Shown here: positions 1-26,055 of the stretch, piece after piece
Numbering within the stretch: position 1 is the first letter of the stretch
Layout of the letters: the number at the start of each line of letters is the position of its first letter
Assembly: GCA_013821605.1 (NCBI GenBank)
Contig: JACDGP010000025.1
Coordinates: forward strand, 18,785 to 51,399
DNA from: Herpetosiphonaceae bacterium
GTDB lineage: Bacteria > Chloroflexota > Chloroflexia > Chloroflexales > Kallotenuaceae
Direction of reading: 5' to 3'
DNA length: 32,615 bases
Notes under the pieces: generated by a model
What the model was told of the DNA's origin: nothing
The model's database searches: none
Seen by the model: the letters and a program-made list of their open reading frames with translations, nothing else
Position numbers and translations under genes: made by a program

Positions 1-1
1 T

Positions 2-1624: not shown

Positions 1625-1629
1625 GACGA

Positions 1630-1646
1630 GAGCACCAACGGTGCTC
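1630..1646. terminator. Hairpin between convergent genes
   Basis: GAGCACC and GGTGCTC form a perfect 7-bp stem with the three-base loop AAC, six bases after the GH94 stop codon and eleven bases before the end of the facing lipoprotein gene. The place suits a bidirectional terminator. There is no T-tract on either side, so the function is inferred from position. Confidence 0.5.
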
Positions 1647-1656
1647 ACTACCATCA

Positions 1657-2886: not shown

Positions 2887-2987
2887 AGACACCTTGACGA
2901 AGTAGTATCATGGGACGAGCATAATATACATCCGGCCCAGCACAGCAGCAATTACGTGTTGGTGATAGCTCGGTGAAGGAGTACAGC

Positions 2988-4064
2988 ATGAGTCAATCGC
3001 CCCTATATCCATTAATGACCAAACGCCGAATCGTGGAGCCGCTGTGGGGTGGGAGCCGGCTGGCTGCATGGCTTGACCTCCCTGCACCACAACCCGAGCG
3101 CATCGGCGAAACGTGGCAAGTATATGATACCAATCCAATCTTGAATGGCCCGTTGGCTGGGCGTACGCTGGCGGAGATCACGCAGCAATACGGCGCGGCG
3201 TTGGTCGGCAACCGTTCGACTGAGCAGTATGGTGCCGACTTTCCGCTCCTGGCGAAATTCATAGATGCTGCAGCGCCACTCTCGATCCAGGTGCACCCGG
3301 ATGATGCCTATGCCCACGAGCACGAAGCAAAGACCGGTTTTCATGGCAAAACCGAGGCCTGGTATATCCTAGACGCCCAGCCGGGTGCTAGCGTTGTGTA
3401 TGGCTTGGAGCGCCCTATCGGGCGTACCGACTTTGCTGCGGCTATTGCGGATGGCACGGTCGAGGGGCTGCTCCATCGCATCCCCGTCAAGGCCGGTGAT
3501 GTGGTCTTCGTGCCGGCGGGCACCGTGCATGCGATTGATGCTGGTACGATGCTGTTCGAGATTCAACAAAAGTCCGACCTGACCTATCGCGTCTATGATT
3601 ATGGTCGTCGTGATGCCAAAACCGGACAGCCACGCGATCTGCATATCGCCAAGGCCCTGGATGTTAGCGAACTCGCGCCCGCACCGCGTGCGGCACTCCC
3701 CCCGCTCCCGATGAGCCCTGAACGCACATTATTGATCGCGTGTCGCTCCTTTGCGCTTGAGCGCTGGACGCTCGACAATACCCATACGGCAGCGACTAAT
3801 CCCGGCTCCTTTGAAATCTTGACCTTAATCGAAGGCAGTGGGACCCTCCAGTGGGCTGATAGTTCACTCCCGTTACGACGTGGCGACTCGGTCGTCCTGC
3901 CTGCAGCATTGGGCAACTATACGTTGCTCCCCACACCACCATCTGCCGCGCCCGATTTGGAGATCCTGCGAGTCTACGTTCCAGATTTGGAACAAGACAT
4001 CATCACACCGTTACGGGCTCAAGGTATTGATGAGGCCCAAATCGCGCGGAACGTCGTACAGTAA
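2988..4064 (+). CDS. manA: Mannose-6-phosphate isomerase, class I
   Basis: A 358-aa zinc enzyme that interconverts mannose 6-phosphate and fructose 6-phosphate in the cytoplasm. Family motifs are clear: WGGSRL near the N-terminus, SIQVHPDD giving zinc ligands Gln101 and His103, KTEAWYIL giving Glu123, and PAGTVHAI giving His181. A second cupin half (FEILTLIEGSGTLQWADSS) completes the type I fold. The start is ATG 2988, with AAGGAG six bases upstream; a GTG at 2973 lies before that site and is unlikely. The gene precedes a sugar ABC transporter and a beta-mannosidase on the same strand, so a catabolic role feeding mannose into glycolysis fits well, although a biosynthetic role (GDP-mannose) cannot be excluded. 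No hexokinase or mannokinase is visible nearby. Confidence 0.93.
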   Translation: MSQSPLYPLMTKRRIVEPLWGGSRLAAWLDLPAPQPERIGETWQVYDTNPILNGPLAGRTLAEITQQYGAALVGNRSTEQYGADFPLLAKFIDAAAPLSIQVHPDDAYAHEHEAKTGFHGKTEAWYILDAQPGASVVYGLERPIGRTDFAAAIADGTVEGLLHRIPVKAGDVVFVPAGTVHAIDAGTMLFEIQQKSDLTYRVYDYGRRDAKTGQPRDLHIAKALDVSELAPAPRAALPPLPMSPERTLLIACRSFALERWTLDNTHTAATNPGSFEILTLIEGSGTLQWADSSLPLRRGDSVVLPAALGNYTLLPTPPSAAPDLEILRVYVPDLEQDIITPLRAQGIDEAQIARNVVQ

Positions 4065-4103
4065 CGCTCGGTTGCTCACCCGCTGATATGCAATAATCAT
4101 CTA

Positions 4104-4132
4104 TTGACGATGAGCTGAGCGCAGTGTAGAGT
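4104..4132 (+). promoter_or_regulatory. Sigma-70-like promoter of the sugar transporter operon
   Basis: TTGACG at 4104-4109 and TAGAGT at 4127-4132 are separated by 17 bases. The predicted start of transcription is near 4139, which would exclude the GTG at 4137 and supports ATG 4179 as the start of the first permease gene. The -35 is five of six to consensus and the -10 is four of six. Confidence 0.5.
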
Positions 4133-4178
4133 AGACGTGCGCAAACGATTACATAAACTATTCGTAGGGGGCACGCTG

Positions 4179-5174
4179 ATGGCCGCCATTGACCACAACG
4201 ACAGTGGTATTCCGCTCGCCCGCACACTTCCGCCCCCCAGTTCAAGTCGTGCCCGTAAAAATTTGCAGTACCTCAAGGAAAACTGGCTTTTGTTCGTGCT
4301 CGGCGGTCCGGGGCTCATCTTCATCCTGCTCTTCAATTATCTGCCGCTCATGGGCAACGTTATCGCCTTTCAAGACTATAGCCCCCGCACGCTCTTTGCG
4401 AGCCCATGGGTCGGCTTCCGCAACTTTCGATTGTTGACAGAAACACCAATTGCGCGACGATTGATCGTTAACACGCTTGGCCTCAATATCTTGTTCATTG
4501 CTGCCGAAACCTTCTGCGGCGTCACGCTGGCTCTCTTCCTAAACGAAGTTAAAGGGAAATATTTCCGGCGCATCGCACAGTCGTTTATGTTTCTGCCGTA
4601 CTTCATGGGCTGGACCGTCGTCGCGATGGTGTTGTTTGGCTTCATCGATTACCAGGTCGGCACCATTAATGCCGTCTTAGCGCGGCTTGGTATGGAACGC
4701 GTTGCGCTTACCACGCAGCCGGCGATCTGGCCATTGCTGCTGACGTTGATCAGAGTTTGGAAGAACGCCGGTGCCTCCTGCATTATCTATCTTGCGGCGC
4801 TCACGAGCATTGATGCCTCACTCTATGAAGCTGCGGCCGTTGACGGTGCGAGTCGTTGGCAGCGCATGCGCTTTATTAGCTTACCGGCCCTCACCGGTAT
4901 CGTTATTCTGCTGATGCTTTTAGCTATTGGCAAAATCTTTTATGGCGACGTCGGCATGATCTACGCGCTGATTGGCAGTCAGGCCCAACTGTATCCCACC
5001 ACCGATGTCATCGATACGTACCTGTTGCGTGCGCTGCAAGTCAACTCTAACTACGGCTTTAGCGCCGCGATTGGCCTGCTGCAATCATTCCTCGGGCTAC
5101 TCTGCGTTTTTGGTTCTAACTGGCTGGCGAAAAAGTTCTCGCAACGGCAGGGCGAAGAGTACGGGCTGTTCTAA
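4179..5174 (+). CDS. Sugar ABC transporter permease, LplB/CUT1 type
   Basis: A 331-aa inner-membrane protein with six predicted transmembrane helices, beginning with the typical NWLLFVLGGPGLIFILLFNYLP segment. The cytoplasmic EAA loop (EAAAVDGASRWQRMRFISLP) that contacts the ATPase is present around residues 214-233. The N-terminal RYLKE-type helix and PLMGNVIAFQDYSP block place it with LplB-like permeases of oligosaccharide transporters. AGGGGG at 4166-4171 precedes ATG 4179. The second permease and the binding protein follow directly. No ATPase gene is found in the window; CUT1 systems often share a housekeeping MsmX-type ATPase encoded elsewhere. The substrate is inferred from the neighbouring beta-mannosidase. 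Confidence 0.9.
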   Translation: MAAIDHNDSGIPLARTLPPPSSSRARKNLQYLKENWLLFVLGGPGLIFILLFNYLPLMGNVIAFQDYSPRTLFASPWVGFRNFRLLTETPIARRLIVNTLGLNILFIAAETFCGVTLALFLNEVKGKYFRRIAQSFMFLPYFMGWTVVAMVLFGFIDYQVGTINAVLARLGMERVALTTQPAIWPLLLTLIRVWKNAGASCIIYLAALTSIDASLYEAAAVDGASRWQRMRFISLPALTGIVILLMLLAIGKIFYGDVGMIYALIGSQAQLYPTTDVIDTYLLRALQVNSNYGFSAAIGLLQSFLGLLCVFGSNWLAKKFSQRQGEEYGLF

Positions 5175-5218
5175 GCATCGGTCTTGGCGTTACTACTCGT
5201 GCCGAAAGGGGTGTAAGG

Positions 5219-6112
5219 ATGATTGAGAAAAGCAACTGGGGCGACAGGCTTCTGGCATTCGTATCCTATGTAGTCGTCGCCGGCTTTGCTGTCATGTGCA
5301 TCTTTCCATTCTGGATCATGGTCGTGGCATCGCTGACCAATGAGAATTCGTTGACACTCAACGGCTATTTGCCCTGGACCACCGATTGGTCGTTGAGCGC
5401 CTACAAATGGGTGCTAGCCGGCAAAGAGATACAGGCCAGTTACTTGGCCTCGCTCGCCCGGACTGTGATCGGAACGACCGGCTCGTTGTTAGTCATGTCT
5501 GGTCTGGCGTACATGATGGCGGCCAAGCGCTTTAAGTGGCGCGGCATAGTGGCAATGTACACGTTTTTCGCGATCATCTTTGTGCCAAGCATCATTCCGT
5601 GGTTCATCACCACACGCAACGTTTTGCGCCTCTACGATAGTCTGCCGGCCTTGATGCTACCGATGATGGTGCAGCCTTTCTGGGTCTTCGTCCTGCGCAA
5701 CTTCTTTGCTCAGCTCCCCGCAGAGCTTAGTGACGCCGCGTATATCGACGGCGCGTCGGATGTTACGATCCTGTTTCGCATCGTTCTCCCGTTATCGGGA
5801 CCCGTGTTGGCGACAGTCGGACTTTTTATGGCCGTCACCTACTGGAATGACTGGTTCTTGCCGGTGATGTTGATCGACCGTGCCACGCAGCTTCGTCCTT
5901 TGCCCGTCATCATCCTCCGCATGGTCAACAACATGCAAGCGATTGCCGAAGCGATGAAACAACCCGGCACCTTTGTGCCGTTGGCACAGTTGCCAGCCAA
6001 CGCCATTCGGATGGCTACAGCGTGCGTGATCATCGGTCCAATCGTCTTTGTGTATCCTTTTGTCCAACGCTATTTTGTCAAAGGGCTGACCATGGGTTCC
6101 GTCAAAGGCTAA
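5219..6112 (+). CDS. Sugar ABC transporter permease, LplC/CUT1 type
   Basis: A 297-aa inner-membrane permease, the partner of the preceding gene. It has six hydrophobic segments, the start VVAGFAVMCIFPFWIMVVASLTNE typical of the second CUT1 permease, an EAA loop variant (SDAAYIDGASDVTILFRIVLP, 169-189 region) and the C-terminal ending KGLTMGSVKG that is almost invariant in LplC-like proteins. GAAAGGGG lies seven bases before ATG 5219. The 44-base gap to the first permease and the downstream binding-protein gene indicate one operon. The pair should form the heterodimeric channel for an imported oligosaccharide. Confidence 0.9.
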   Translation: MIEKSNWGDRLLAFVSYVVVAGFAVMCIFPFWIMVVASLTNENSLTLNGYLPWTTDWSLSAYKWVLAGKEIQASYLASLARTVIGTTGSLLVMSGLAYMMAAKRFKWRGIVAMYTFFAIIFVPSIIPWFITTRNVLRLYDSLPALMLPMMVQPFWVFVLRNFFAQLPAELSDAAYIDGASDVTILFRIVLPLSGPVLATVGLFMAVTYWNDWFLPVMLIDRATQLRPLPVIILRMVNNMQAIAEAMKQPGTFVPLAQLPANAIRMATACVIIGPIVFVYPFVQRYFVKGLTMGSVKG

Positions 6113-6200
6113 TGTACATACTCGCTGCGGAAGGAGGTACGTGATTACCCCCACTTAACCACACATGTTGTTCGATGTCGTACTCACAAAGAGGTGTATT

Positions 6201-7895
6201 ATGGCCAAGCTCACGCGCCGCCAAATGCTCAAGGCTACCGCCACCATGACGATCGGCGGCGTTCTGGCCGCCTGTGGTTCTACACCGGCCGCACCGGCGG
6301 CGGACCAGACGTCTGCCACGGGTTCGACCGCATCCTCGGCTAATCCAGCGACAGCTGCACCCGCTGCGGCCACGACCTCAGCAGCAACCGAGGTAGCTAC
6401 GACTGCGCCCCCGGCTGCGGCTATAACCGTTGCACCCGCCGCTTCAACCGGTAAACTGGTGAAGATTACGCTGGTGGAAAGTTGGTTCGGTCTGCCGCAA
6501 TACGCGGAAAGTATCGCCCCAGTAACCAAGGCCATCTCCGAAAAAATGCAGAAAGAAGGGCTGAACATCGAGCTTGAGTCGTTGGTTCTCGATGATCATG
6601 CGACCAAATATCCCGTCTTGTATTCCTCCGGGGCTGATTTCACAATGGCCTTTGATGCGCCCTGGTACAAGATGGACACGCTGCGTGCTCAACGGGCGCT
6701 GGTACCACTCGAAGACCTAGTCGCCCAGTATGGTCCCAAGCTCAAGGCGGAGATCACCGATAAGATTTACCAAGCCAATCTGATGGAAGGTCACCTATAC
6801 GGCATTCCGGTGGTCTTCTATTACGGTGCCAGCTCGGGCGTCATCTTACGGGATGATTTACGTCAGAAATACAAGGCTCCGGAACCGACTAGCGAAGGTG
6901 GTTGGCCCACCCTCCAGCCCTATCTCGAGGCGATCAAGGCGAATCAGCCGCAGACGATACCCTGGGCCAACATCCCTAACTACACGATTACCGATATCGT
7001 GGGCGGCCATTCCTGGAATGTCGGGGTCAAAGGGATGATTATTCCCGACGCGACTAAGGAGCTCACCTTGGTCGATTATGAGTCGTGGCCGGCATTCGTT
7101 GACCGCGCCCGACTGCTACGTAGCTGGTGGGAAAAGGGGCTGATTAATAAGACCGACCTGAACATGTCCGGCACGAGCCAGACCGTCGAGCCGGACTACA
7201 TTTTCCCCGGCAAGGCCGCATCCTGCATTGAAAACGAGCCCGACTACAAATTCATCGATTTTACCAAGGCAATGAAGTCCTCCAACCCCGACGCCTCGCT
7301 GATGGGCTATGACATGAAGGGTATCTACTCGACGAAAACACGCAGCTTTGGCGGGCTCAAAGCCGGCAACTTCATGGTCTTCAACGCCAGCGCCCCCAAA
7401 GAGCAACAGGTCGCCGGCATCCAGTTCTTCAACTGGCTGGTCAGCAGCCAGGACAACATGGATCTCTGGCTCATGGGCATTGAGGGTGTTAATTACAAAA
7501 AAGAAGCCAACTTGCGCTTCTCCGAGGTACCTGGCGTGGATGCGGCCCGCAACTACCGTCGCCAGTGGTATGTTTCGGGTGTCTCCGGTCGCTTCCAGCG
7601 GCAGCCGGTTGATCTGCCCAAGGCAGCGGCCGATGCCCTGACCTTCTTCAGTACCGAGTCCAACTGGGATTTCAATCCGCACGAACAATTTCAGATCGAT
7701 TCGAAGGCGCTCGAAGTGGACATCGCCAAGCTTAACGGCGTGTATGACGAGGCCATGCACGGGTTGGTGACCGGCCAGGAACCCACTGACACGGCAATCT
7801 CGAAAGCCAAGAAGTTGCTGGACGATGCTGGGCGCCAGCAGCTTAAGCAGAAAGTGCAAGCAGAGTTGAATGACTACCTTGCCAAACATCCATAA
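6201..7895 (+). CDS. Extracellular sugar-binding lipoprotein of the ABC transporter
   Basis: A 564-aa binding protein. The signal is MAKLTRRQMLKATATMTIGG followed by lipobox LAAC: a twin-arginine TRRQMLK motif plus a lipid-attachment cysteine, so a Tat-exported lipoprotein is likely. A spacer of about 60 residues rich in Ala, Thr and Pro follows, then an extracellular solute-binding domain of family 1 (LplA-like, with WNVGVKGM, DFTKAM and FGGLKAGNFMVFN regions). ATG 6201 has GAGGTG four bases upstream; the longer in-frame start at 6165 would put a non-signal extension in front and lacks a ribosome site. Upstream, AAGGAGG at 6131 sits before a five-codon GTG frame of unknown meaning. The substrate is probably a mannoside, judged only from neighbours. 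Confidence 0.88.
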   Translation: MAKLTRRQMLKATATMTIGGVLAACGSTPAAPAADQTSATGSTASSANPATAAPAAATTSAATEVATTAPPAAAITVAPAASTGKLVKITLVESWFGLPQYAESIAPVTKAISEKMQKEGLNIELESLVLDDHATKYPVLYSSGADFTMAFDAPWYKMDTLRAQRALVPLEDLVAQYGPKLKAEITDKIYQANLMEGHLYGIPVVFYYGASSGVILRDDLRQKYKAPEPTSEGGWPTLQPYLEAIKANQPQTIPWANIPNYTITDIVGGHSWNVGVKGMIIPDATKELTLVDYESWPAFVDRARLLRSWWEKGLINKTDLNMSGTSQTVEPDYIFPGKAASCIENEPDYKFIDFTKAMKSSNPDASLMGYDMKGIYSTKTRSFGGLKAGNFMVFNASAPKEQQVAGIQFFNWLVSSQDNMDLWLMGIEGVNYKKEANLRFSEVPGVDAARNYRRQWYVSGVSGRFQRQPVDLPKAAADALTFFSTESNWDFNPHEQFQIDSKALEVDIAKLNGVYDEAMHGLVTGQEPTDTAISKAKKLLDDAGRQQLKQKVQAELNDYLAKHP

Positions 7896-7919
7896 GGACT
7901 AGTTTAAGGAGGCCAAGAA

Positions 7920-8774
7920 ATGATTAGTGATCAGACACGGACGAATGCAGACGGTCAAACGGCTGCAGCTACCGCTACGCATCCCGAGCTTATGCCCATC
8001 TCCCAACCGGGGGCGATGACCGAGATGGATCACTTTGTCTTTGAATGCTTCGGCTACCTCATTATCCCCGATGTCCTCAGCGAGGAAGAGTGCGACGAGG
8101 CCTTGGAGGCTGCCAAGCGCGTCCACGGCAGCCGCCCGGCGGAGAAGTTTCTCCAAATCGGCAAGGGCTTCGAGCACGAGCCGGTGCTGGAGCGACTGAT
8201 CGACCATCCTGCCGTCTTGCCGAAAGTGCGTGCGCTGCTGGGTGACCGCTTCGTCCTACAGGCTGCTTGGTGCACGGTGCTACCGGCCAACGCCGGTGCC
8301 GTCGGCTGGCACCAGGATGGCTCCGGTGCCTATGATTTTAAGCAATTGGGCTATCCGGTGCCGCTGCTCCAACTACGCGCCAGCTACAGCTTGACCGACC
8401 AGTCAGAAGAGAACATGGGCAACATGATCATGATTCCGGGTAGTCATCGCAGTCCGGTACCGTTGCCCAAAGAGGTCCGTAAGGAAGCCTATGCCAGCCC
8501 GATCCAGCACATCGTCCGGGCCAAACGCGGCTCCGTCCTCCTCTTCCACAACGGCGTCTGGCACTCACCGATGCCGAGCCATCTAGACTATGATCGCTAT
8601 AATATGCACTATATCTATAGCCCACCCTGGCTGCGCCGCTCGGACCGCGATGCGACCGATCCAGAGTTTCTCCAACAGACGACGCCCCGGCTACGCGCGC
8701 TGATGGGCGACTATGACCGGCCCGACGTGCCCTTTGCCGGAGGCTTCCCGCCGATCCCCTTCGACGACGTCTAA
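7920..8774 (+). CDS. Phytanoyl-CoA dioxygenase (PhyH) family protein
   Basis: A 284-aa Fe(II)/2-oxoglutarate-dependent oxygenase homologue. The iron-binding facial triad is visible: His131 and Asp133 in GWHQDGSG, and the distal His215 in GVWHSPMPSH, followed by an Arg in YDRYNMHY that suits 2-oxoglutarate binding. The N-terminal block YLIIPDVLSEEECDEALEAA is typical of the family. A strong TAAGGAGG lies seven bases before ATG 7920, and the gene begins 24 bases after the binding-protein gene, so it is in the transporter operon. Family members hydroxylate many small molecules; the true substrate is not predictable. Its position between a sugar transporter and a beta-mannosidase suggests it acts on a modified sugar, glycoside or lipid-linked substrate. 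Confidence 0.88.
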   Translation: MISDQTRTNADGQTAAATATHPELMPISQPGAMTEMDHFVFECFGYLIIPDVLSEEECDEALEAAKRVHGSRPAEKFLQIGKGFEHEPVLERLIDHPAVLPKVRALLGDRFVLQAAWCTVLPANAGAVGWHQDGSGAYDFKQLGYPVPLLQLRASYSLTDQSEENMGNMIMIPGSHRSPVPLPKEVRKEAYASPIQHIVRAKRGSVLLFHNGVWHSPMPSHLDYDRYNMHYIYSPPWLRRSDRDATDPEFLQQTTPRLRALMGDYDRPDVPFAGGFPPIPFDDV

Positions 8775-8799
8775 GGCAACGCTGTTCAAATCAACACAC

Positions 8800-8844
8800 G
8801 GGGTCCATGTGAGCGCTGCACCTCGCAGTTGCTCATGTGACCCC
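8800..8844 (+). other. Interrupted hairpin between PhyH and beta-mannosidase genes
   Basis: GGGGTC/GACCCC (8800-8805 with 8839-8844), TGAGC/GCTCA (8810-8814 with 8831-8835) and CTGC/GCAG (8816-8819 with 8825-8828) stack into one long imperfect hairpin of about 15 pairs. It lies in the 108-base gap before the beta-mannosidase. It has no T-tract, so it may be an RNA-processing or partial termination site that sets the ratio of the two products. Confidence 0.45.
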
Positions 8845-8882
8845 TTACTGATTCTAGATATCATCAGGAGACCAAAAGCTTC

Positions 8883-11351
8883 ATGCAACGCTTGTCACTC
8901 AATGGGGTCTGGCAGTTTCGCCAGCAGGGTACGGAGGAGTTTCATCCTGCGCAGGTGCCGGGCTGTGTTCATACGGACTTACGGAGCAATGATCTGATTC
9001 CTGATCCGTTCTGGGGCTCGAATGAGCTTGACCTGCAATGGATCGAAGAGGCTGACTGGGAGTATGTCACCGACTTCGATGTGGCCGACGACCTATTGGC
9101 GCGGGAGCACGTGGATCTGGTAGCCGACTGCTTGGATACGCTCGCGACCATCACGCTCAACGGCCACGAAGTCGCACGCACGGAAAATATGTTTGTCGGC
9201 TATCGCTTCCCGGTCCGCGAGTGGCTGCAGCCGGGTCACAACACGTTGCGAATCCAGTTCGCCAACCCGATGGGCTATATTCGTGCCCGCCTCCCGCTGC
9301 ATCATTTTGCCGAATGGAACGATCCGGTCGGGGGATCGTCCAATATCCGTAAAGAGCCGTGTTCATTTGGCTGGGACTGGGGGCCGCGCTTTGCAACCTC
9401 AGGCATTTACAAAAATATCGAGTTGCAGGGCTGGGATAGTAATCGCATCACGCGTGTGCATGCCAAGCAACAGCACGGCGACGGCACGGTCCATCTGGCG
9501 GTTGATGTGCAGTTGGCACACTCCGATCCCAACGCCCGCCTACGCTGCCGCCTCGTTCTCAATGAGCAGCTTGTAGCGCAAGCCGAAGGCAGCGGTGAGC
9601 TCGCCTTGCGCGTCGAACAGCCTCAGCTATGGTGGCCGAACGGTCTGGGCGCGCAGCCGCTGTATGATCTCCATGTCGAGCTGCTGCAAGCTGACGACGG
9701 GCTCGACCAGTGGCAGCAGCGCATCGGCTTCCGCACCATCGAACTAGATCGCCATCCCGACGAGTGGGGCGAAAGTTTTCAATTCGTGGTCAACGGCTTG
9801 CCGGTTTTTGCAAAAGGTGCTAATTGGATTCCGGCGCACAGCTTCCTCCCATCATTCACACGGGACGACTACGAGAATGTGCTCATTTCAGCGACCGAAG
9901 CCAACATGAACATGCTGCGTGTGTGGGGCGGCGGCATTTATGAGATGGATGATTTTTATGACCTGTGTGATGAACTGGGGTTGATGATATGGCAGGATTT
10001 CATGTTCGCCTGCTCGCTATATCCGGGCGATGACCATTTTCTTGATCTGGTGCGGCAGGAAGCAGCGTATCAGGTGCCGCGGTTGGCTAACCATGCGTGC
10101 ATGGCATTGTGGTGTGGCAACAACGAGATCGAGCAAATGGCACCACAGATTACTGCAACGCCCGAACGCAAAGCCGCCTATGAACGGGTGTTTTACGACA
10201 TTCTGCCTGCGGCCGTGGCACAGTACGATGCCGTGACCCCTTATTGGCCCGGTTCGCCCCATAATCCCGAGGGCTATGAAAAAGGTCATAACAACGAGCG
10301 CGCTGGCGACTGCCACTTTTGGGATGTATGGCACGCGCGCTATCCGGTGAAGCGCTATGAAGAAATGAAGTTTCGCTTCTGCTCCGAGTTTGGTATGCAA
10401 TCGTATAGTTCGCCGGTCGTGGCAGCAACCTTCTGCCCGCCGGAAGAAATGAACGTGTTTGGTCCAGCCATGGAAAATCATCAGAAAAATGCCGCAGGCA
10501 ATCAGATTATTTCTGATTATGTCTCGCGGCGCTATCGTTACGCCAAAGATTATGCTGCATTAGCCTATTTATCGCAGCTCAATCAGGCGTATTGTATGCA
10601 AGTGGGTGTTGAGCACTTCCGGCGCTCGATGCCACGGACCATGGGTGCCTTGTACTGGCAGATCAACGACTGCTGGCCCGTGTTTTCGTGGAGCAGCCTG
10701 GAGTTCGGCGGGCGCTGGAAGGCCCTACACTACGAAGCACGGCGCTTCTTTGCACCTGCGCTGGTTTCGGCGCAAGTGCCGGGGGACGAAAAAGCAGGCA
10801 TCGGCAACTACATCAGCAGCACAATCCACGACATCAACGTCTACACTGTGTATGAGGGTAGAGCACCGCAGAGTGGCATGCTACGCTGGACGCTGTATAC
10901 CTTGGATGATGCGATCATAGATGAAGGCAAGCAGGAGGTTGAGTTGCGGTACGGGGAAGCCGTGCAGCAAACAACACTTGATTTTGCCGACGCCATCGAG
11001 CAACATGGTAGGCGGCAGCTGTACCTGCGGCTGTGGCTTGAAATCGATAACGCGATGGTCTCGGAGCAGACGGTGTTTTTCACGGCACCACGCTTTTTGA
11101 ACCTGCGGCGCGCTTCCGTCCAAACCAGCATACAGCTAAGCCAAGATGGCAGCGTTGAGATCGAGTTCCGGTCAGCGGTGTTTCAGCACCGCGTGGAATT
11201 TGATATACCGGGAATGGATTACCGCGCATCCGACAATTTCTTCGATCTGTACCCCGGCGTGCCCCACCGCATCCGAGTGCGGGCGGAGAAGCTGCACGAA
11301 GCAGATGTGGCGGGTCGCTTGACCACACGCTCGTTGGTCGATAGTTACTAA
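8883..11351 (+). CDS. Beta-mannosidase, glycoside hydrolase family 2
   Basis: An 822-aa retaining exo-glycosidase, the usual length of the family, that removes beta-linked mannose from the non-reducing end of mannosides. The order is an N-terminal jelly roll (LNGVWQFRQQG, VPGCVHTDL), the immunoglobulin-like domain, then the TIM barrel. The acid/base Glu415 lies in WCGNNEIEQ and the nucleophile Glu502 in FCSEFGMQSY; the block GSSNIRKEPCSFGWDWGPR is diagnostic for GH2 beta-mannosidases rather than beta-galactosidases. No signal peptide is seen, so it acts in the cytoplasm on imported sugar. CAGGAG lies twelve bases before ATG 8883. Together with the transporter and ManA it makes a mannoside-use locus. 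Confidence 0.93.
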   Translation: MQRLSLNGVWQFRQQGTEEFHPAQVPGCVHTDLRSNDLIPDPFWGSNELDLQWIEEADWEYVTDFDVADDLLAREHVDLVADCLDTLATITLNGHEVARTENMFVGYRFPVREWLQPGHNTLRIQFANPMGYIRARLPLHHFAEWNDPVGGSSNIRKEPCSFGWDWGPRFATSGIYKNIELQGWDSNRITRVHAKQQHGDGTVHLAVDVQLAHSDPNARLRCRLVLNEQLVAQAEGSGELALRVEQPQLWWPNGLGAQPLYDLHVELLQADDGLDQWQQRIGFRTIELDRHPDEWGESFQFVVNGLPVFAKGANWIPAHSFLPSFTRDDYENVLISATEANMNMLRVWGGGIYEMDDFYDLCDELGLMIWQDFMFACSLYPGDDHFLDLVRQEAAYQVPRLANHACMALWCGNNEIEQMAPQITATPERKAAYERVFYDILPAAVAQYDAVTPYWPGSPHNPEGYEKGHNNERAGDCHFWDVWHARYPVKRYEEMKFRFCSEFGMQSYSSPVVAATFCPPEEMNVFGPAMENHQKNAAGNQIISDYVSRRYRYAKDYAALAYLSQLNQAYCMQVGVEHFRRSMPRTMGALYWQINDCWPVFSWSSLEFGGRWKALHYEARRFFAPALVSAQVPGDEKAGIGNYISSTIHDINVYTVYEGRAPQSGMLRWTLYTLDDAIIDEGKQEVELRYGEAVQQTTLDFADAIEQHGRRQLYLRLWLEIDNAMVSEQTVFFTAPRFLNLRRASVQTSIQLSQDGSVEIEFRSAVFQHRVEFDIPGMDYRASDNFFDLYPGVPHRIRVRAEKLHEADVAGRLTTRSLVDSY

Positions 11352-11374: not shown

Positions 11375-11406
11375 CTATGGATGGGGACGACCTGCCTCAT
11401 CCATAG
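11375..11406. terminator. Hairpin between convergent genes
   Basis: CTATGGATG (11375-11383) and CATCCATAG (11398-11406) pair perfectly over nine bases with a 14-base loop. It covers the stop codon of the minus-strand nucleotidyltransferase and lies 24 bases after the beta-mannosidase stop. No T-tract follows on either strand; terminator function is inferred from location. Confidence 0.4.
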
Positions 11407-12202
11407 CACGCTCATCCTGCTGACTGCGTACCATCGTATAGCGTATAAACTGGAGCGTTTCGTTTAAATCCTCGGGGGCAGGGGGCATGTCGGGATGATG
11501 CCGTCCCTCCCATGCGCGCTCGATCAACGGCGCCCAGCGCCCATCCAAGCTGGCCTGTGCCCAGCGTGCGGCAACTCGCTTCGATGCAACGGTTCCAGAG
11601 TCTAGCGTATACAGAATGCGGCACTGCGCGAGGACGACATAGGATTGGTAGCCGCGGCTACCGATCTCTGATGGGTTCGCCAGTAGATTGGCTGCCCATC
11701 CATGCACAACACCGAGCATGGCGCGCCGTAAATCCTGGGGCGAGACAGGCTCAATAAGGGTTTGCGGAGCAGGTCCGACCAGCGTTATCCCCCGTTCGCG
11801 TAAGATAGCGAGGTGAACGAGCCAAGCATCACCGTGGTCCGCCATTTTAAGCCGCTCACCCGGCCCACGCTCAATATTGGGGTGTAGCGCGTGGGTTGGG
11901 TCATAGCGCCGTAGTGCCTGCTGCGAAAGATAGGAGCCTTCTAGCTGAATGGCCCACGGCGAGTCAAGGGTCCCAAGGCGATCATGCATCGTCTGCAACC
12001 CAACAAAAAGCTCGGACGAGATGTCCTCGTCGCTGACGACCACAAAATCAATATCGCTATCTTGGTCGAAATCACTGCCAGTCAGCGAGCCGTCCAGGTA
12101 CATGCCGATAAAATGCGCCCCTAAAATAGCTTGCACGCTCACTAATAGTTCTTGGAGGATAGCATTAACGTCGGGATACGGTGTCGGCTGTGCCTTGTTC
12201 AT
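11375..12202 (-). CDS. Nucleotidyltransferase with AadA-like/DUF4111 C-terminal domain
   Basis: A 275-aa protein. The N-terminal nucleotidyltransferase motif GSLTGSDFDQDSDIDFVVV (Gly-Ser, then Asp-x-Asp binding metal and NTP) occurs at about residues 43-61, followed by the helical domain of aminoglycoside 3''-adenylyltransferases (DLRRAMLGVVHGWAANLL, YVVLAQCRILYTLDSGTVASK). Family members transfer AMP to aminoglycosides, but many chromosomal relatives have no proven resistance role, so the substrate is open. Its ATG at 12202 follows the amidase stop by a single base (TAG-G-ATG), which predicts translational coupling. A longer in-frame start inside the amidase gene (12340) is rejected because of that arrangement and because the added residues do not match the family. 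Confidence 0.8.
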   Translation of the reverse strand: MNKAQPTPYPDVNAILQELLVSVQAILGAHFIGMYLDGSLTGSDFDQDSDIDFVVVSDEDISSELFVGLQTMHDRLGTLDSPWAIQLEGSYLSQQALRRYDPTHALHPNIERGPGERLKMADHGDAWLVHLAILRERGITLVGPAPQTLIEPVSPQDLRRAMLGVVHGWAANLLANPSEIGSRGYQSYVVLAQCRILYTLDSGTVASKRVAARWAQASLDGRWAPLIERAWEGRHHPDMPPAPEDLNETLQFIRYTMVRSQQDERAMDEAGRPHP

Positions 12203-12203
12203 C

Positions 12204-13790
12204 CTAAAACCCCGTTGGATGCTGCCGGTGAAAGTCCGTCGCCTCCTGATAGGCCTGCGCGACTTGCAAGATCGTCGCTTCGTCATACAAGCGACCGGTG
12301 AAGGTGATACTGGCCGAACTACCCTCGCTATCGACCCCATGCGGAATGACGACCGCCGGTTGACCCGTGAAATTGGTGATCACCAAGCTCGGTCCGACCA
12401 GTGATGGTCCAACATACAGATCGACGTTGGTCATGAGCTCGGCCATGGACTGCATCAGTAGGGTCCGAACGCGATTGGCCTGGATATATTCAACGGCTGG
12501 AATCAACCGTGCTTTGCGGAACGAGGTCGGCCAGGCATCCTCGGTCTGGCGAACCAGCAGATCATCCTGGTTGGAGCGGGTTAACTCGTCGAAGGCCGCC
12601 GCACCCTCGGCATATAGGATGGTCTGCAGTGCATCCAACGGGTAGTCCGGTAGCTTGAGCGGCACGAGCGTCGCGCCGAAGCCACGCAGCACCTTGAGGA
12701 TATCGTCATAGGCGAGGTCCTTCGCATCCTCGGATACAAAATCCTCTTCGAGGTAGCCGATGCACAGCGCACTCATATCAAGGGCCGGCGGCCAGGGGAA
12801 GGGGCGGTCGACGGTCGTCAGGTCCCGGCTATCCGAGCCGTGAAGCGCCTGGAAGATCAGCCCCAAATCCTCGACGGTGCGGGCCATTGGTCCGATCTTG
12901 TCCATACTCCAACTCAAAGCCATCGCCCCATAACGACTGACGCGTCCGAAGGTCGGTCGCAAGCCGGAGACGCGGCAGCGGGTCGCAGGCGAAACGATCG
13001 AGCCGAGTGTTTCGGTCCCAATGGCAAAGCCAACCAGTCCTGCGGCAGTTGCCGCGCCAGAGCCGGCCGACGAGCCGCTTGAGCCTTCCTGCAGATTCCA
13101 AGGATTCTTGGTTTGGCCGCCAAACCAAATGTCGTCCCAGGCCAGTTCGCCTACGGTCAGTTTGGCCAGCAGCACCGCACCGGCCGCCTCAAGCCGGTCA
13201 ACCACCGCCGCGTTGGTCGCCGGGATCTGCTCCTTGTACGGCGCTGCGCCCCAGGTCGTCCGAATCCCTTTGGTCGCCAGCAAATCCTTCGCCCCCCACG
13301 GAATACCATGCAGTGGTCCGCGACATGTCCCGGCCGCCAGCTCCGCGTCGGCAGCTTTAGCTTGACTGCGCGCTAGCTCTTCGGTCATGGTGACTACACA
13401 TGTGAACTGCGGATCAAAGCGCTGCAAACGATCAAGATACAGATCGGTCAATTCAACCGAACTCACCTGCCGCGCCTTGATCAGTTGCGACAGCACAGCT
13501 ACTGATGCGAATGCCAAGTCATCCTGATCGGCCAGCTTTTGGATCGGTGCCGCCGGCACCCGTGGGACGTCCGCCACTGCCACGGGCTGCGGCATAGGGC
13601 GAATATCCGGCTGGAAGATCAACGCCAGTGGCACCTCGTTCGATAACGGCAACGCGCGCAGTTGCTCATAGACATCAACCCGCTCCTGGACCCCTTTCAG
13701 CATCAGGGCTCGCTCCTCAGGGGTGAATGTCAGTCCCGCGATCGCTGTCGCTGATACCAGTATTTCGTCGGTTAGCGGAGATGTATTCAT
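12204..13790 (-). CDS. Amidase (amidase signature family, GatA-like)
   Basis: A 528-aa hydrolase of amide bonds. The Ser-cisSer-Lys triad can be assigned: Lys168 in GIPWGAKDLL, the cis-Ser at about 240 in EGSSGSSAGSG, and the nucleophile Ser264 in TETLGSIVSPA. About 90 residues before the catalytic domain form a helical region (TPEERALMLKGVQERVDVYEQ) resembling the GatC-like extension of some stand-alone amidases. ATG 13790 has TGAGG nine bases upstream and is preferred over GTG 13844. Because GatB and GatC are absent nearby, a small-molecule amidase is likelier than tRNA amidotransferase. It is co-transcribed with the nucleotidyltransferase, and a decayed copy of its 5' end lies 600 bp upstream. 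Confidence 0.88.
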   Translation of the reverse strand: MNTSPLTDEILVSATAIAGLTFTPEERALMLKGVQERVDVYEQLRALPLSNEVPLALIFQPDIRPMPQPVAVADVPRVPAAPIQKLADQDDLAFASVAVLSQLIKARQVSSVELTDLYLDRLQRFDPQFTCVVTMTEELARSQAKAADAELAAGTCRGPLHGIPWGAKDLLATKGIRTTWGAAPYKEQIPATNAAVVDRLEAAGAVLLAKLTVGELAWDDIWFGGQTKNPWNLQEGSSGSSAGSGAATAAGLVGFAIGTETLGSIVSPATRCRVSGLRPTFGRVSRYGAMALSWSMDKIGPMARTVEDLGLIFQALHGSDSRDLTTVDRPFPWPPALDMSALCIGYLEEDFVSEDAKDLAYDDILKVLRGFGATLVPLKLPDYPLDALQTILYAEGAAAFDELTRSNQDDLLVRQTEDAWPTSFRKARLIPAVEYIQANRVRTLLMQSMAELMTNVDLYVGPSLVGPSLVITNFTGQPAVVIPHGVDSEGSSASITFTGRLYDEATILQVAQAYQEATDFHRQHPTGF

Positions 13791-19269: not shown

Positions 19270-20268
19270 TTAGTAGCCGTTGAACACCGTGACGGTATTG
19301 CTCTCCGAGTTCGTCACGTAGACCCGGTTGTAGCCGCGGTCCACCGCGATGTAGAGCGGGACAGCCCCAACATCGACCGTCGCAATGACGGCGTTGGTCG
19401 TCGTGTCAAGCACCGATACCGTGTTACTCCCGTAGGCGTCGGCCAGAAAGGCCAGGTGTGTCGATGGGTTGAGTGCGACGCCATTGGGATCCGTTCCGAC
19501 CGGAGACACTTGGTCAATGATCGTATTGGTGGTTGTATCGAGCACCAATACCGTAGTGGCCAGACCGGTCGTGACAAAGGCGCGGTGCGTGAACAGGTTC
19601 AAGGCGATGCTATTGAGAAGGAGCCCGAAGGGCGTCCGGATCGTGGTAACAACGGTATTGGTGGTCGTGTCGATCACGGAGATCATGGTGTTACTATCGG
19701 TGACATAGACGCGGTTGGCGAACGGATCGATCGCCACATGCGTCGGTGCAAGCCCAGCCGGAATGGTGGCAATGACGGTGTTAGTGGCTAGATCAAGCAC
19801 GGTCACGCTGTTGGTAGAGTTATCATCGTTCGCAACATAGGCACGATTGGTGAACAGGTTGACCACGATCCCGAGGGGATATGCATTCGTCCGAATGGTG
19901 GTAACGACCTTGTTGGTGAGCGTGTTGATCGCCAACACCGACCTAGTAATGAAGAGCGTCGCATAGAGGCGGTTGGTGGCCGGGTTGACCGCGAGCTCGT
20001 AGGCTGGACTGGGAACGGGAATATCCGCAACGACGGCGTTGGTGGTGGTATTGATGACCGAGATCGTGCTCTGGTTCGCGACATAGGCGCGATGGGTGGA
20101 GGCGTTGACCGCGATGCCAGCGGAACGAGCACTAACCGGAATGGTGGCAATCACAGCGAAGGGTGTGCGGGCGGAGGCATGGCCAAGGGGGAGCGTGCTC
20201 CCGAGTGCCAAGCCGACCAAGAGTAGGACGCGGGGGAATGTGAGCCGAGAACGTCGAACGGCGGACAT
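19270..20268 (-). CDS. Secreted YVTN-family beta-propeller protein
   Basis: A 332-aa protein. A Sec signal peptide covers the first 35 or so residues (VLLLVGLALGSTLPLGHASA), with likely cleavage after ASA. The rest is seven to eight repeats of about 42 residues built on the pattern AVNPxTNRxYVxNxxxNTVSVIDTTTNxVxATI, the YVTN/lactonase-like beta-propeller. AAGGAGG lies five bases before ATG 20268; the longer frame to 20502 runs into the formate dehydrogenase leader and is rejected. Members are surface proteins of unclear function. It is divergent from the formate dehydrogenase gene. The repeats are also visible in the DNA as recurring ACCACCAAC-type blocks. Confidence 0.85.
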   Translation of the reverse strand: MSAVRRSRLTFPRVLLLVGLALGSTLPLGHASARTPFAVIATIPVSARSAGIAVNASTHRAYVANQSTISVINTTTNAVVADIPVPSPAYELAVNPATNRLYATLFITRSVLAINTLTNKVVTTIRTNAYPLGIVVNLFTNRAYVANDDNSTNSVTVLDLATNTVIATIPAGLAPTHVAIDPFANRVYVTDSNTMISVIDTTTNTVVTTIRTPFGLLLNSIALNLFTHRAFVTTGLATTVLVLDTTTNTIIDQVSPVGTDPNGVALNPSTHLAFLADAYGSNTVSVLDTTTNAVIATVDVGAVPLYIAVDRGYNRVYVTNSESNTVTVFNGY

Positions 20269-20351
20269 AGCGGCCTCCTTGCGAAACGAGTGGGTGCTCA
20301 TTAAGCATAACGCTGCTGTCAATTCGCATGGCTGCGTAGTGCGTTCACCAA

Positions 20352-20376
20352 CCTCGGCACGTGTTCTGCTCCGAGG
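20352..20376 (+). other. Leader hairpin before the formate dehydrogenase gene
   Basis: CCTCGG and CCGAGG (20352-20357 with 20371-20376) pair over six bases with a 13-base loop, nine bases before the GGAG ribosome site at 20385. It may affect translation or RNA stability. No known riboswitch was recognised. Confidence 0.25.
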
Positions 20377-20395
20377 CACAGCATGGAGAAGACGC

Positions 20396-23300
20396 ATGAA
20401 GATTTTCAACCAACTCAAAGACCATATCGGCTTGGTGCCCAACCCCATCAGCGACAAGACCCGCCAGATCCATGCCCGCATCAATGATGCATCGATGAGC
20501 ATAAGCGTGTGCCCCTACTGTGCAGTTGGCTGCTCGCAACTCGTGTATACCAAAGATGGCAAGATTATCGACATCGAGGGGAATTACGAGAGCCCGATCA
20601 ACGGTGGAACGCTCTGCCCGAAAGGCGCGGCGACGTGGGGCTTGCTCCATAGTCCCACGCGCATCACAACCGTCAAATACCGCGCACCCTATAGCGATCA
20701 TTGGGAGGAGCGTTCGCTCGACTGGGCCATGGAGCGGATCGCCCAACGTGTCAAGCAGACGCGCGATGCTCATTACGAAGAGCGGGACGAGCATGGCATG
20801 ACCGTTAATCGCACCCTGGCGATCGGCCATTTTGGTGGCGCGACCCTCGATAATGAAGAGAATTACCTGATCAAGAAGCTGTTTACCGCCGGTCTAGGCA
20901 TCGTCGCCGTCGAGAACCAAGCGCGCATTTGACACTCCTCTTCAGTGCCCGGTCTGGGCGCTCGACTTGGTAGGGGGGCGGCGACGACGACCCAAGAAAG
21001 CTTGGTCGACAGCGACTGCATCATCATTATGGGCGCCAACATGGCGGAGAACCATCCGGTCGGTTTTCGCTTCGTCATGCAGGCCAAGGAGCGCGGCGCG
21101 AAGCTGATTCATATCGATCCGCGCTTTTCGCGCACGTCGGCCATGGCTGACCTGCATGTCGCGCTGCGCGCCGGTAGTGACCTGATCTTGCTCGGAGCGC
21201 TGATCAATTATGTGATGAGCAGTGAGCACTGGAATAGAGATCCGTTCTTCCAGGAATACCTCACGCACTATACGAATGCGGCGACGCTAATTAATCCAGA
21301 TTTCAAGGATACCGAGGATCTTGCGGGCATCTTCTCGGGCTATGATCCGGAGGAGCGCAAGTATGATCCGGAGGCGTGGCGCTATGCGGGACAGCAAGGA
21401 AAATCCTCCGCCAACCAACATCACGAGTCGCAAGACGCCATGGCGCGTACCGAAATCGTCGGCCAGCAGGACTCGATCCCGGAGTACGACTTCACACTCC
21501 AGGATCCGCATTGTGCCTTTCAAATCATGAAGCGCCACTTTGCCCGCTATACACCGGAGATGGTCGAGCAAGCCTGTGGCGTGCCGCAAGCCGTGTTTCT
21601 CCAGGTGGCCGAGGCTATCCTTACCAATTCTGGCCGCGACCGGACAACGTCCTTTGCCTATGCTGTCGCCTGGACGCAGCACTCTATCGGTACGCAGATC
21701 ATTAGCTGCTGCGCCTTGTTACAGTTACTGCTGGGCAACATCGGCCGCCCTGGCGGCGGTATCCTCGCGCTGCGTGGCCATGCCACGATCCAGGGCAGTA
21801 CCGATATTCCCACCCTATACAACCTGCTACCTGGCTACCTGCCGATGCCCAACGCAACCCAGCAGCACGGCTCGCTGGCGGACTACCTGGAGCAAGAGCG
21901 CCCCCAAAAGGGTGCCTGGTACACCATGCCCAACTACGTAGTCAGCCTGCTCAAAGCCTACTACGGCGATGCTGCGATCCCGGCCAACGGCTTCGCTTAC
22001 GATCTGCTGCCGAAGATCAGTGCAGATTACTCCTTCCAGCCGATGCTCCTCATGATGAAGGACGGCAACCTGCGTGGCCTCTTTTGCATGGGCCAGAACC
22101 CGGCAGTCGGCGGGCAGAATGCAGTCCTGGCTCGCCAGGCGCTGGCCAATCTTGATTGGCTCGTCGTGCGCGATATTCATGAGATCGAAACCGCTGCGTT
22201 CTGGTATGACGCGCCCGAGGTGCGGCGTGGCGATCTCCGCCCGCAAGATATTGGGACCGAGATTTTCTTGATGCCGGCGGCGCTGGCTGCCGAAAAAGAA
22301 GGTTCGTATACCAACACGGAGCGCTTGATACAGTGGCATGACAAGGCGGTGGAGCCGCGCGGTGACTGTCGCTCCGAGTCCTGGTTCGTGTACCACCTTG
22401 GCAAAAGACTCAAGCAGTTATACCAGGGCGATACAAGCCCGCGTGGTCGCCAAATCGAGGCAGTAACCTGGGATTATCCCACCGCAGGTGCTACCCAAGA
22501 TCCTGATCTCGACATGGTCGTTAAGGAGATCAACGGCTACACGGTGGCTGACGGGAAACCTATCAAGAACGGTACCGCTCTCAAAGATGACGGCTCAACC
22601 GCCTGCGGCTGCTGGCTTTATAGCGGCATCATGACCGAAGACGGCCACAACCGGGCGCGCAACCGCAAGGGCGACGAGCGAGCATCCCTCGGATGGGGCT
22701 TTTCATGGCCATCCAACCAGCGCATCATGTATAACCGCGCCTCGGCCGACCCCGCTGGTAAGCCCTGGAGTGAGCGTAAAAAGTGGATCTGGTGGGATGC
22801 GGAAAAGGAGGAATGGACGGGCTATGACGTGCCGGACTTTCCCGAGCATAAGCAGCCCAACTACCAGCCGGCCCCCGACGCCAAGGGTCTGGATGCGATC
22901 GCGGGTGACGCACCCTTCGTTAACATGGCCGATGGGCGCGGCTGGTTGTTTGCTGCCTCAGGCCTCCGTGACGGTCCGCTGCCGACGCACTACGAACCGG
23001 TCGAAACACCGGTTTCCAATCTGCTCTACCCCGGCCAGCTGCACAGTCCCACCGTGAAGCTGTTCCACCGCTCCGACAACCCGTATCATGAGATGGCCGA
23101 TCCGCGTTTTCCTTATGTGATCACCACCTACCGGCTCACCGAGCAGTACACGGCGGGTGGCATGAGTCGCTGGGTACCCTGGCTGGCCGAGCTACAACCG
23201 CACGGCTTTATCGAAATCAGCCCCGAGCTGGCCGCCGAGCACGGTATTACCAATGGCGACTGGGTGACCGTTTGGACGCTGCGCGGCGAGGCTGAAGCCT

Positions 23301-23533
23301 TGGCCCTGGTAACCGAACGCTTGCAGCCCCTCATGATCGATGGTCGGACGATACACCAAGTTGGCATGCCCTGGCACTTCGGCTTTGGCGGCCTGGCGCA
23401 GGGCGGTATTGCCAACGACTTGAGCGCACTGGTGGAGGATCCCAACTCGTTGATCCATGAGGCCAAGGCTTTCACCTGCAATCTGCGCAAGGGCCGCATC
23501 GCGGGACAGTCTCAAGGAGCGCGACCGTTATGA
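20396..23533 (+). CDS. fdh: Formate dehydrogenase catalytic subunit, selenocysteine-containing
   Basis: A 1045-aa molybdenum/tungsten bis-MGD enzyme that oxidises formate to CO2. One continuous protein results when the TGA at 20930-20932 is read as selenocysteine (Sec179): the context NQARI-U-HSSSVPGLG matches the active-site stretch of known Sec formate dehydrogenases (NQARV-U-H in E. coli FdnG). Cys residues of CPYCAVGC and LCPKG near the N-terminus bind a [4Fe-4S] cluster; His180 follows the Sec as in the family. The C-terminal molybdopterin-dinucleotide-binding domain lies around residues 880-1030. ATG 20396 has GGAG seven bases upstream. There is no twin-arginine signal, so the enzyme is probably cytoplasmic, as in the actinobacterial type. 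The stop overlaps the next gene by ATGA. Automatic gene calling would split it into two frames at the TGA. Confidence 0.95.
20930..20932 (+). other. In-frame UGA selenocysteine codon
   Basis: TGA interrupts the formate dehydrogenase frame exactly at the catalytic Sec/Cys position, with homologous sequence continuing in the same frame on both sides. The SECIS hairpin follows at the correct distance and a tRNA-Sec gene lies in the same window. Confidence 0.95.
20944..20962 (+). promoter_or_regulatory. Bacterial SECIS element
   Basis: AGTGCCC (20944-20950) and GGGCGCT (20956-20962) form a seven-pair stem, with one U-G pair, closing the loop GGTCT. The loop begins 18 bases after the UGA. The same loop sequence and the same 18-base distance occur in the E. 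coli fdhF SECIS that binds SelB. The U at 20946 could act as the bulged U known from that element. Confidence 0.9.
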
Positions 23534-24378
23534 GCGCAACAATCCCATTGATCGACAAGACAATGGTCGGACAGCATGGTGCGCGGCCAGGCGCCATGGG
23601 CTTTTTGACCGATACGACGCTGTGTATTGGTTGCAAGGCCTGTGAGGTCGCCTGCAAGCAGTGGAATCAGTTGCCCATGGACAACTTCGGCTTCACCGGC
23701 CATAGTTACGACAATACTGGAGACCTGGCGGCTGCGACCTGGCGCCATGTCGTCTTTGTTGAACAGATCAGCGACAGCACCGGTCAGCGCGCTACGGCCA
23801 TGGCACCCTTCCAGAGTAACTGGCTGATGATGAGCGATGTCTGCAAGCACTGCGTCAACGCTGGCTGTCTTGAAGCCTGCCCGACCGGCGCGATCATTCG
23901 TACCGAGTTCGATACAGTGGTGATTCAGCAGGACATTTGTAATGGTTGTGGCTACTGTATTCCCGCTTGCCCCTATGGTGTGCCGGAACTGAGCGCCACC
24001 GATCACCAAGCTCATAAATGCACCCTCTGCTATGATCGACTAGACTCTGGCCTTGAACCGGCCTGTGCCAAAGCCTGTCCAACCGACTCGATCCAGTTTG
24101 GACCGGTAACGGCGTTAATGGAGCACGCACAGACCCGTGTGGCCGACCTGCAGAGCCGCGGTGTGGATAGCGCCTATATTTATGGCGACCGGGCAATCGG
24201 CGGCACCGGCGGCATCGACGGCAATAACGCCTTCTTTATTCTCACCGCCGAACCCGAGGTCTACAACCTGCCGGCCTATCCGGAGTTGCCGCAGGATAAG
24301 GTGGGCCGGGCCTTTCTCACAACCTTTGGTGCGGCATTGGCGCTGGGTGTTGCCGCAGTCGTAGCCTTGCGCGGCTAA
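23530..24378 (+). CDS. Formate dehydrogenase iron-sulfur subunit
   Basis: A 282-aa ferredoxin-type electron-transfer subunit with four cysteine clusters suitable for four [4Fe-4S] centres: CIGCKACEVAC, CKHCVNAGCLEACP, CNGCGYCIPACP and CTLCYDRL with CAKACP. It takes electrons from the catalytic subunit and passes them to the membrane subunit. The last 22 or so residues (FLTTFGAALALGVAAVVAL) form a single hydrophobic helix, comparable to the C-terminal anchor of FdnH. ATG 23530 overlaps the stop of the catalytic gene (ATGA), so the two are translationally coupled. The NrfD gene follows after 30 bases. Confidence 0.93.
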   Translation: MSATIPLIDKTMVGQHGARPGAMGFLTDTTLCIGCKACEVACKQWNQLPMDNFGFTGHSYDNTGDLAAATWRHVVFVEQISDSTGQRATAMAPFQSNWLMMSDVCKHCVNAGCLEACPTGAIIRTEFDTVVIQQDICNGCGYCIPACPYGVPELSATDHQAHKCTLCYDRLDSGLEPACAKACPTDSIQFGPVTALMEHAQTRVADLQSRGVDSAYIYGDRAIGGTGGIDGNNAFFILTAEPEVYNLPAYPELPQDKVGRAFLTTFGAALALGVAAVVALRG

Positions 24379-24408: not shown

Positions 24409-25425
24409 GTGGACATATCGTACAAGCGGCAATGGGAGACGCGGGGTAGTCGTCGTCGCGCGGTGCCGGCAGAGGCACCTACCAGCTACTACAACCTGCC
24501 CGTGATTCACAAGGCCCACTGGGGTTGGTTGGTCATCATATACTTTTTTCTCGGCGGCATCTCGGCCGGCAGTTATGTTATTGCCACAGTCGCTGACCTG
24601 TTTGGTGGCCCTGACGCGCGCCGTATTCGCCAGGTCGGGCGCTATCTCGCCCTCGGGGCGCTCTTGCCTAGTCCTGTCCTATTGATTCTCGATCTAGGCC
24701 GTCCCGAGCGCTTCTACCGTATGCTACGGGTGCTCAAGCTGCGCTCGCCCATGTCTGTCGGGACATGGGGCCTGACCATTTTTGGCGGCTTTTGTGGCCT
24801 CTCCGCGTTAATTCAAACCGCCGAGGACGGGCTGTTTGGCTCATTCACGCTCCCGCGCCGGTTTCTGTTGGCGCTGCCCTCCAAACCTATTGGCGTGCTC
24901 GGTACGCTCTTCGGCTTCCTTGTTGGTGGCTATACCGGCGTCTTACTCGCCGCGACCGCCGTTCCGCTCTGGGCTAAGAATTATTTGTTGCTAGGGCCGC
25001 TCTTTCTCACATCAGCGATGTCTACGGCCAGCGCCGCGATTGTGCTCGTGCTGGTATCGATCCGTAGTACCAGTCACCGCACGCTCAAGCGTCTGGAACG
25101 CCTCGATCTGATTGCGATCGTGCTTGAGCTTGTGCTGCTCCTGGCGGCAAAGGCGAACCTCGGGCCGATCATTGCGCGGCCACTACAGGTGGGCAAGCTC
25201 GCCCGCGTCTACCGCTGGGGCGTGCTCGGAGCCGGCATCACCCTGCCGTTAACACTTCTATCCGTCACCATGCTTTGGCGCAAAGCACCCGCTCGCCTCC
25301 TCGGGGCGCTCTCCTCGCTGCTGGTGTTGGTGGGCGGTCTTCTGCTACGCTATGTCATGGTTGAGGCTGGTCATGCCTCTGCAGACGATCCCCAGGCCAC
25401 CTTCGCTTTCGCCCGCAAGCCGTAA
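24409..25425 (+). CDS. nrfD: NrfD/PsrC-like membrane subunit of the formate dehydrogenase complex
   Basis: A 338-aa integral membrane protein with eight or nine hydrophobic helices. The motif HWGWLVIIYFFLGGISAGSYV early on and LDLGRPERFYRMLRV are characteristic of NrfD-like quinone-interacting subunits. Such subunits accept electrons from an iron-sulfur partner and reduce the quinone pool, in place of the cytochrome b subunit FdnI. The start is GTG 24409, with GAGGAG seven bases upstream. The N-terminal 30 residues are hydrophilic and basic, which favours a cytoplasmic N-terminus. Its position makes it the membrane anchor of the Sec-enzyme. Confidence 0.9.
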   Translation: MDISYKRQWETRGSRRRAVPAEAPTSYYNLPVIHKAHWGWLVIIYFFLGGISAGSYVIATVADLFGGPDARRIRQVGRYLALGALLPSPVLLILDLGRPERFYRMLRVLKLRSPMSVGTWGLTIFGGFCGLSALIQTAEDGLFGSFTLPRRFLLALPSKPIGVLGTLFGFLVGGYTGVLLAATAVPLWAKNYLLLGPLFLTSAMSTASAAIVLVLVSIRSTSHRTLKRLERLDLIAIVLELVLLLAAKANLGPIIARPLQVGKLARVYRWGVLGAGITLPLTLLSVTMLWRKAPARLLGALSSLLVLVGGLLLRYVMVEAGHASADDPQATFAFARKP

Positions 25426-25958: not shown

Positions 25959-26055
25959 TGGCGCGAGTGCGTGGGAGTCGAACCCACCGGCGACGTTCGT
26001 CACGCCGTCCACACATTTTGAAGACGTGGGCCACCACCGGACAGCATCCACCCGC
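25959..26055 (-). tRNA. selC: Selenocysteine tRNA, anticodon UCA
   Basis: On the minus strand the 97-nt sequence folds as a bacterial tRNA-Sec: 5' acceptor strand GCGGGTGG with 3' strand GCACTCGC (seven pairs, the eighth position G-G), a six-pair D stem GCTGTC/GGTGGC with loop CGGT, anticodon arm CACGT-CTTCAAA-ATGTG with anticodon TCA at 26019-26021, a long extra arm with stem CGGCG/CGCCG, T arm GTGGG-TTCGACT-CCCAC, discriminator G and an encoded CCA. The extended acceptor plus T stack and the long extra arm set it apart from a suppressor or serine tRNA. It is needed to decode the UGA of the formate dehydrogenase 5 kb away. Confidence 0.95.

Follow-up and report, generated by a model that had tools for sequence, protein, structure and literature searches.

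An in-frame UGA at the catalytic site of a Chloroflexota formate dehydrogenase gene is predicted to be decoded as selenocysteine

Two open reading frames in the same phase (20096..20932 and 20945..23533 under translation table 11), with a single TGA between them, raise the question of whether this locus carries two broken genes or one gene encoding a selenoprotein. The locus was examined within a window of 32,615 nucleotides, which is the whole stretch of DNA that was analysed. The original prediction had described it as a formate dehydrogenase split by a TGA at the active-site position, and the arrangement of the two frames is as described there. Reading through the TGA yields one continuous product from the ATG at 20396, in which the UGA at codon 179 is the sole internal stop and a second TGA (23531-23533) is the terminal one. 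This start is supported by homologs that align from residue 1 and by a GGAG upstream. On the comparisons given below, the locus almost certainly encodes a selenocysteine (Sec)-containing formate dehydrogenase from the FdhG/FdnG family, with Mo- or W-bisPGD, in a Chloroflexota host, the UGA being decoded as Sec (Table 1).

Table 1. Coordinates of the features of the formate dehydrogenase locus within the window.
Feature	Position	Strand	Basis
Formate dehydrogenase alpha subunit, predicted selenoprotein (Sec179), 1045 aa	20396..23533	+	NF041513, TIGR01553, FdnG alignment
In-frame UGA, predicted to be read as selenocysteine	20930..20932	+	Opposite Sec196 of FdnG; TGA in 46/46 relatives
SECIS-type hairpin, 7-bp stem, loop GGUCU (20951-20955)	20944..20962	+	18 nt after UGA
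Iron-sulfur beta subunit, 4Fe-4S dicluster domains	23530..24378	+	TIGR01582, PF13247
NrfD-type membrane subunit	24409..25425	+	PF03916 122.1 bits
tRNA-Sec gene, anticodon UCA, encoded CCA	25959..26055	-	ARAGORN; Rfam RF01852

The joined alpha protein matches its family over the full length, exceeding the cut-offs of both the curated NCBI model NF041513 (formate_DH_Act; 1506.5 bits, cut-off 1400) and TIGR01553 (formate dehydrogenase-N alpha; 966 bits, cut-off 814.2). Among solved structures, its top PDB match is 1kqf (E=2.5e-216), and it shares 39% identity with Escherichia coli FdnG over 1027 aligned columns. With E. coli FdnGHI (formate dehydrogenase N, PDB 1KQF), the locus has in common the alpha family, the position of the UGA and an iron-sulfur beta subunit. 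Rubrobacter and other actinobacterial records share the Sec codon and hairpin, whereas the host here, as judged by its relatives, belongs to the Chloroflexota. The expectation that default gene calling would produce two broken genes holds for pipelines that ignore Sec but not otherwise, since the curated model NF041513 exists. Reading the locus as one enzyme rather than two broken genes corrects a likely mis-annotation.

In the protein alignment, codon 179 falls opposite Sec196 of FdnG, that is, at the catalytic Sec position, and is followed by His (RI-U-H here, RV-U196-H in FdnG), which bears out the proposed active-site placement. Conservation of the codon was assessed in 48 related loci from named genomes, mostly Chloroflexota (Thermomicrobiales, Sphaerobacter) together with Rubrobacter, other actinobacterial records and Eremiobacterota; 46 of these loci cover the UGA codon. 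A TGA that arose in a Cys enzyme as a nonsense mutation or an assembly error would likewise break the frame at codon 179 under table 11. However, TGA stands at this same codon in all 46 covering relatives, which come from many assemblies, where Cys codons would have favoured a pseudogene; the remainder of the frame is intact, and the synonymous sites just downstream of the TGA are under selection (see below). A pseudogene is therefore extremely improbable, and the TGA, which relatives carry independently, is genuine. Further copies with either codon were seen among the sampled genomes: one that is 93% complete and has no selA match (G086) carries TGC at the site and lacks the GGTCT hairpin, and in another (G034), which does have selA, a more distant copy has TGC. 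In two genomes of 86% and 64% completeness (G121 and G134, respectively), a TGA-bearing copy was found and no selA match.

If the UGA is read as Sec, a SECIS element would be expected to direct the decoding, and the hairpin directly 3' of the codon was examined for loop and spacing, synonymous constraint and covariation, all of which support it. GGTCT begins 18 nt past the TGA and is flanked by AGTGCCC and GGGCGCT. The claimed likeness to E. coli fdhF held up when that gene was fetched as a control, its TGA at codon 140 also being followed by GGTCT after 18 nt. While loop and spacing are the same, the E. coli stem has a bulged U, whereas the stem in the window differs in sequence and pairs without a bulge. 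Among the 46 relatives covering the codon, 44 have GGTCT at +18 and the remaining two have AGTCT or GGGCT. Folding energy by itself was unremarkable (z = -1.26, with 22 of 200 shuffles as good) and, not being significant, was dropped as evidence in favour of synonymous-site and covariation tests.

The synonymous-site test covered 234 fourfold-degenerate sites in 52 sequences that were left after thinning at 90% nucleotide identity. The four lowest-entropy sites of the gene are those of codons 183-186, and when synonymous conservation is ranked over runs of five codons, the top five runs of the alpha gene all fall within codons 180-188. Whereas 12.6% of Gly codons elsewhere end in T, GGT is used at codon 186 in 98% of cases. 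Furthermore, the 7-bp stem is paired in 96.4% of cells, and changes on both sides occur at three of its pairs: the one that closes the loop (C-G to G-C) and column pairs 18-30 and 15-33 (both G-C to C-G). None of 500 shuffles gave as many doubly changed cells as were observed; the shuffles ignore the relatedness of the sequences, so that covariation is supportive and synonymous constraint is the main evidence for the hairpin; the covariation signal was lost when the partner was slid by 1-3 columns. Because codons 183-186 hold the least variable fourfold sites and the stem shows compensatory changes, the hairpin is, on these comparative grounds, a real RNA element under RNA-level selection. The bulge-less, GC-rich and strongly conserved stem with the loop GGUCU spans Chloroflexota, Actinomycetota and Eremiobacterota. 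It might represent a lineage-specific SECIS type, which the SelB of these groups would read somewhat unlike E. coli SelB, an idea that we put forward tentatively and consider rather unlikely.

The genome (5.88 Mb, 259 contigs, 99.57% complete) contains selA, selB, selC and selD together, in agreement with the claim that the organism uses Sec. SelA (544.5 bits), SelB (320 bits, 630 aa) and SelD (376.6 bits) all score over their cut-offs, and one copy of fdhD is present as well. A second SelB-like match (L003) was rejected as an EF-Tu-like ORF. These genes also bear on a general change of the code, in which UGA would stand for another amino acid such as Trp: the frame stays open whatever residue the TGA encodes, but the 1045 codons include a single internal TGA, located at the catalytic Sec/Cys position, the genome has a dedicated tRNA-Sec(UCA) along with selA, selB and selD, and the alpha gene itself terminates in a TGA that overlaps the beta start. 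Such a reassignment is hardly credible. For decoding as Sec, SelA and SelD would supply Sec-tRNA, and SelB with Sec-tRNA(Sec) would read UGA codon 179, directed by the hairpin just downstream.

The tRNA-Sec gene, which the original prediction had missed, lies within the window itself and scores 59.9 bits against Rfam RF01852 (gathering score 47). Its architecture matches that in relatives. Because the Rfam alignment leaves a gap in the acceptor stem, a defective tRNA (window 25963-26055, minus strand) was considered; the eighth acceptor-stem pair is a G-G mismatch. This candidate explanation was rejected, since three same-family relatives (G098, G121 and G129) have the identical mismatch, and the tRNA was therefore taken as the normal 8+5 type. 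The gene sits 0.5 kb past the NrfD gene of the formate dehydrogenase operon. No tRNA-Sec was found in the fetched flanks (≤6.5 kb) of 40 related formate dehydrogenase loci, and in those genomes of the same family that were compared, it is either on a different contig from the formate dehydrogenase or over 1 Mb away from it. Since this closeness is absent from the compared relatives, a functional linkage was rejected, and the proximity is probably due to chance.

Further candidates for Sec-encoding genes were identified in the same genome. selD (L010:1480-2523, G000:C92) itself encodes a selenoprotein: its active-site codon is UGA (SCAG-U-AAK), and the GC-rich stem-loop that comes after it has a loop other than GGUCU. 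A second operon for a Sec-containing formate dehydrogenase (G000:C29; TGA at L091:5612-5614) shows TGA and GGUCU with identical spacing and hairpin, and also holds genes for an iron-sulfur protein, an NrfD protein and an FdhE-like protein. Upstream of this second operon lie genes for sulfite reductase and PAPS reductase. The SelW-like Rdx gene in the genome contains no UGA. Judging by these genes, the bacterium would have at least three selenoprotein genes, for two formate dehydrogenases and SelD, and a complete Sec system.

Returning to the locus in the window, the alpha gene of the operon is followed by those for the iron-sulfur beta subunit and then the NrfD-type membrane protein, with the start of the beta gene overlapping the alpha stop. 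The beta subunit scores 85.6 bits against PF13247 and 189.7 bits against TIGR01582, the latter being under the cut-off (334.7). A cytochrome b gamma subunit is not encoded in the operon, the third gene being of the NrfD type (PF03916). By inspection, the alpha N-terminus MKIFNQLKDHIGLVPN has no twin arginine, in contrast to that of E. coli FdnG (MDVSRRQFFK), and since a Tat signal is absent, the enzyme probably faces the cytoplasm, with the NrfD-type subunit as its anchor. FdnGHI is periplasmic and has a cytochrome b, whereas the complex encoded here has an NrfD-type membrane subunit instead. Gene order and the missing twin-arginine signal together suggest a membrane-bound, cytoplasm-facing complex that passes electrons to quinone. 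In such a complex, Sec would be a metal ligand in mature alpha, which would oxidise formate (or reduce CO2), and electrons would flow from alpha via the iron-sulfur beta subunit to the NrfD-type membrane subunit and from there probably to quinone at the cytoplasmic face. The replacement of cytochrome b by an NrfD-type subunit and the absence of a Tat signal would also suit a Sec enzyme that acts mainly as a CO2 reductase or has a partner other than quinone. However, alpha and beta match the respiratory-type family, even though direction is not readable from sequence, and we consider this alternative rather improbable.

The Sec trait was originally called patchy in the likely phylum of the host. 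Our sample of 150 genomes from the class shows otherwise: 116 of them have a selA match above the cut-off, and Sec use is thus the norm among them. FdhA and SelD are reported to be the most widespread bacterial selenoproteins; among 75 organisms that use Sec, 67 have FdhA, and five selenoproteins are listed for Rubrobacter xylanophilus (PMC1794560). Furthermore, the phyla with the Sec trait include the Chloroflexi (PMC5322559). Since FdhA and SelD are widespread (PMC1794560) and the trait has already been reported for the Chloroflexi (PMC5322559), the Sec-containing formate dehydrogenase described here is genuine but ordinary, and its kind is already well known. A complete Sec system is confirmed in this bacterium, and no general view is altered.

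Elsewhere in the window, positions 1-11351 hold a probable sugar-use cluster with a GH94 protein, a phosphomannose-isomerase-like protein, two ABC permeases, a DUF3502 protein, PhyH and a GH2 mannosidase-like protein. An ORF on the minus strand (11375-12340) contains the C-terminal domain of aminoglycoside adenylyltransferases (PF13427, 54.1 bits).
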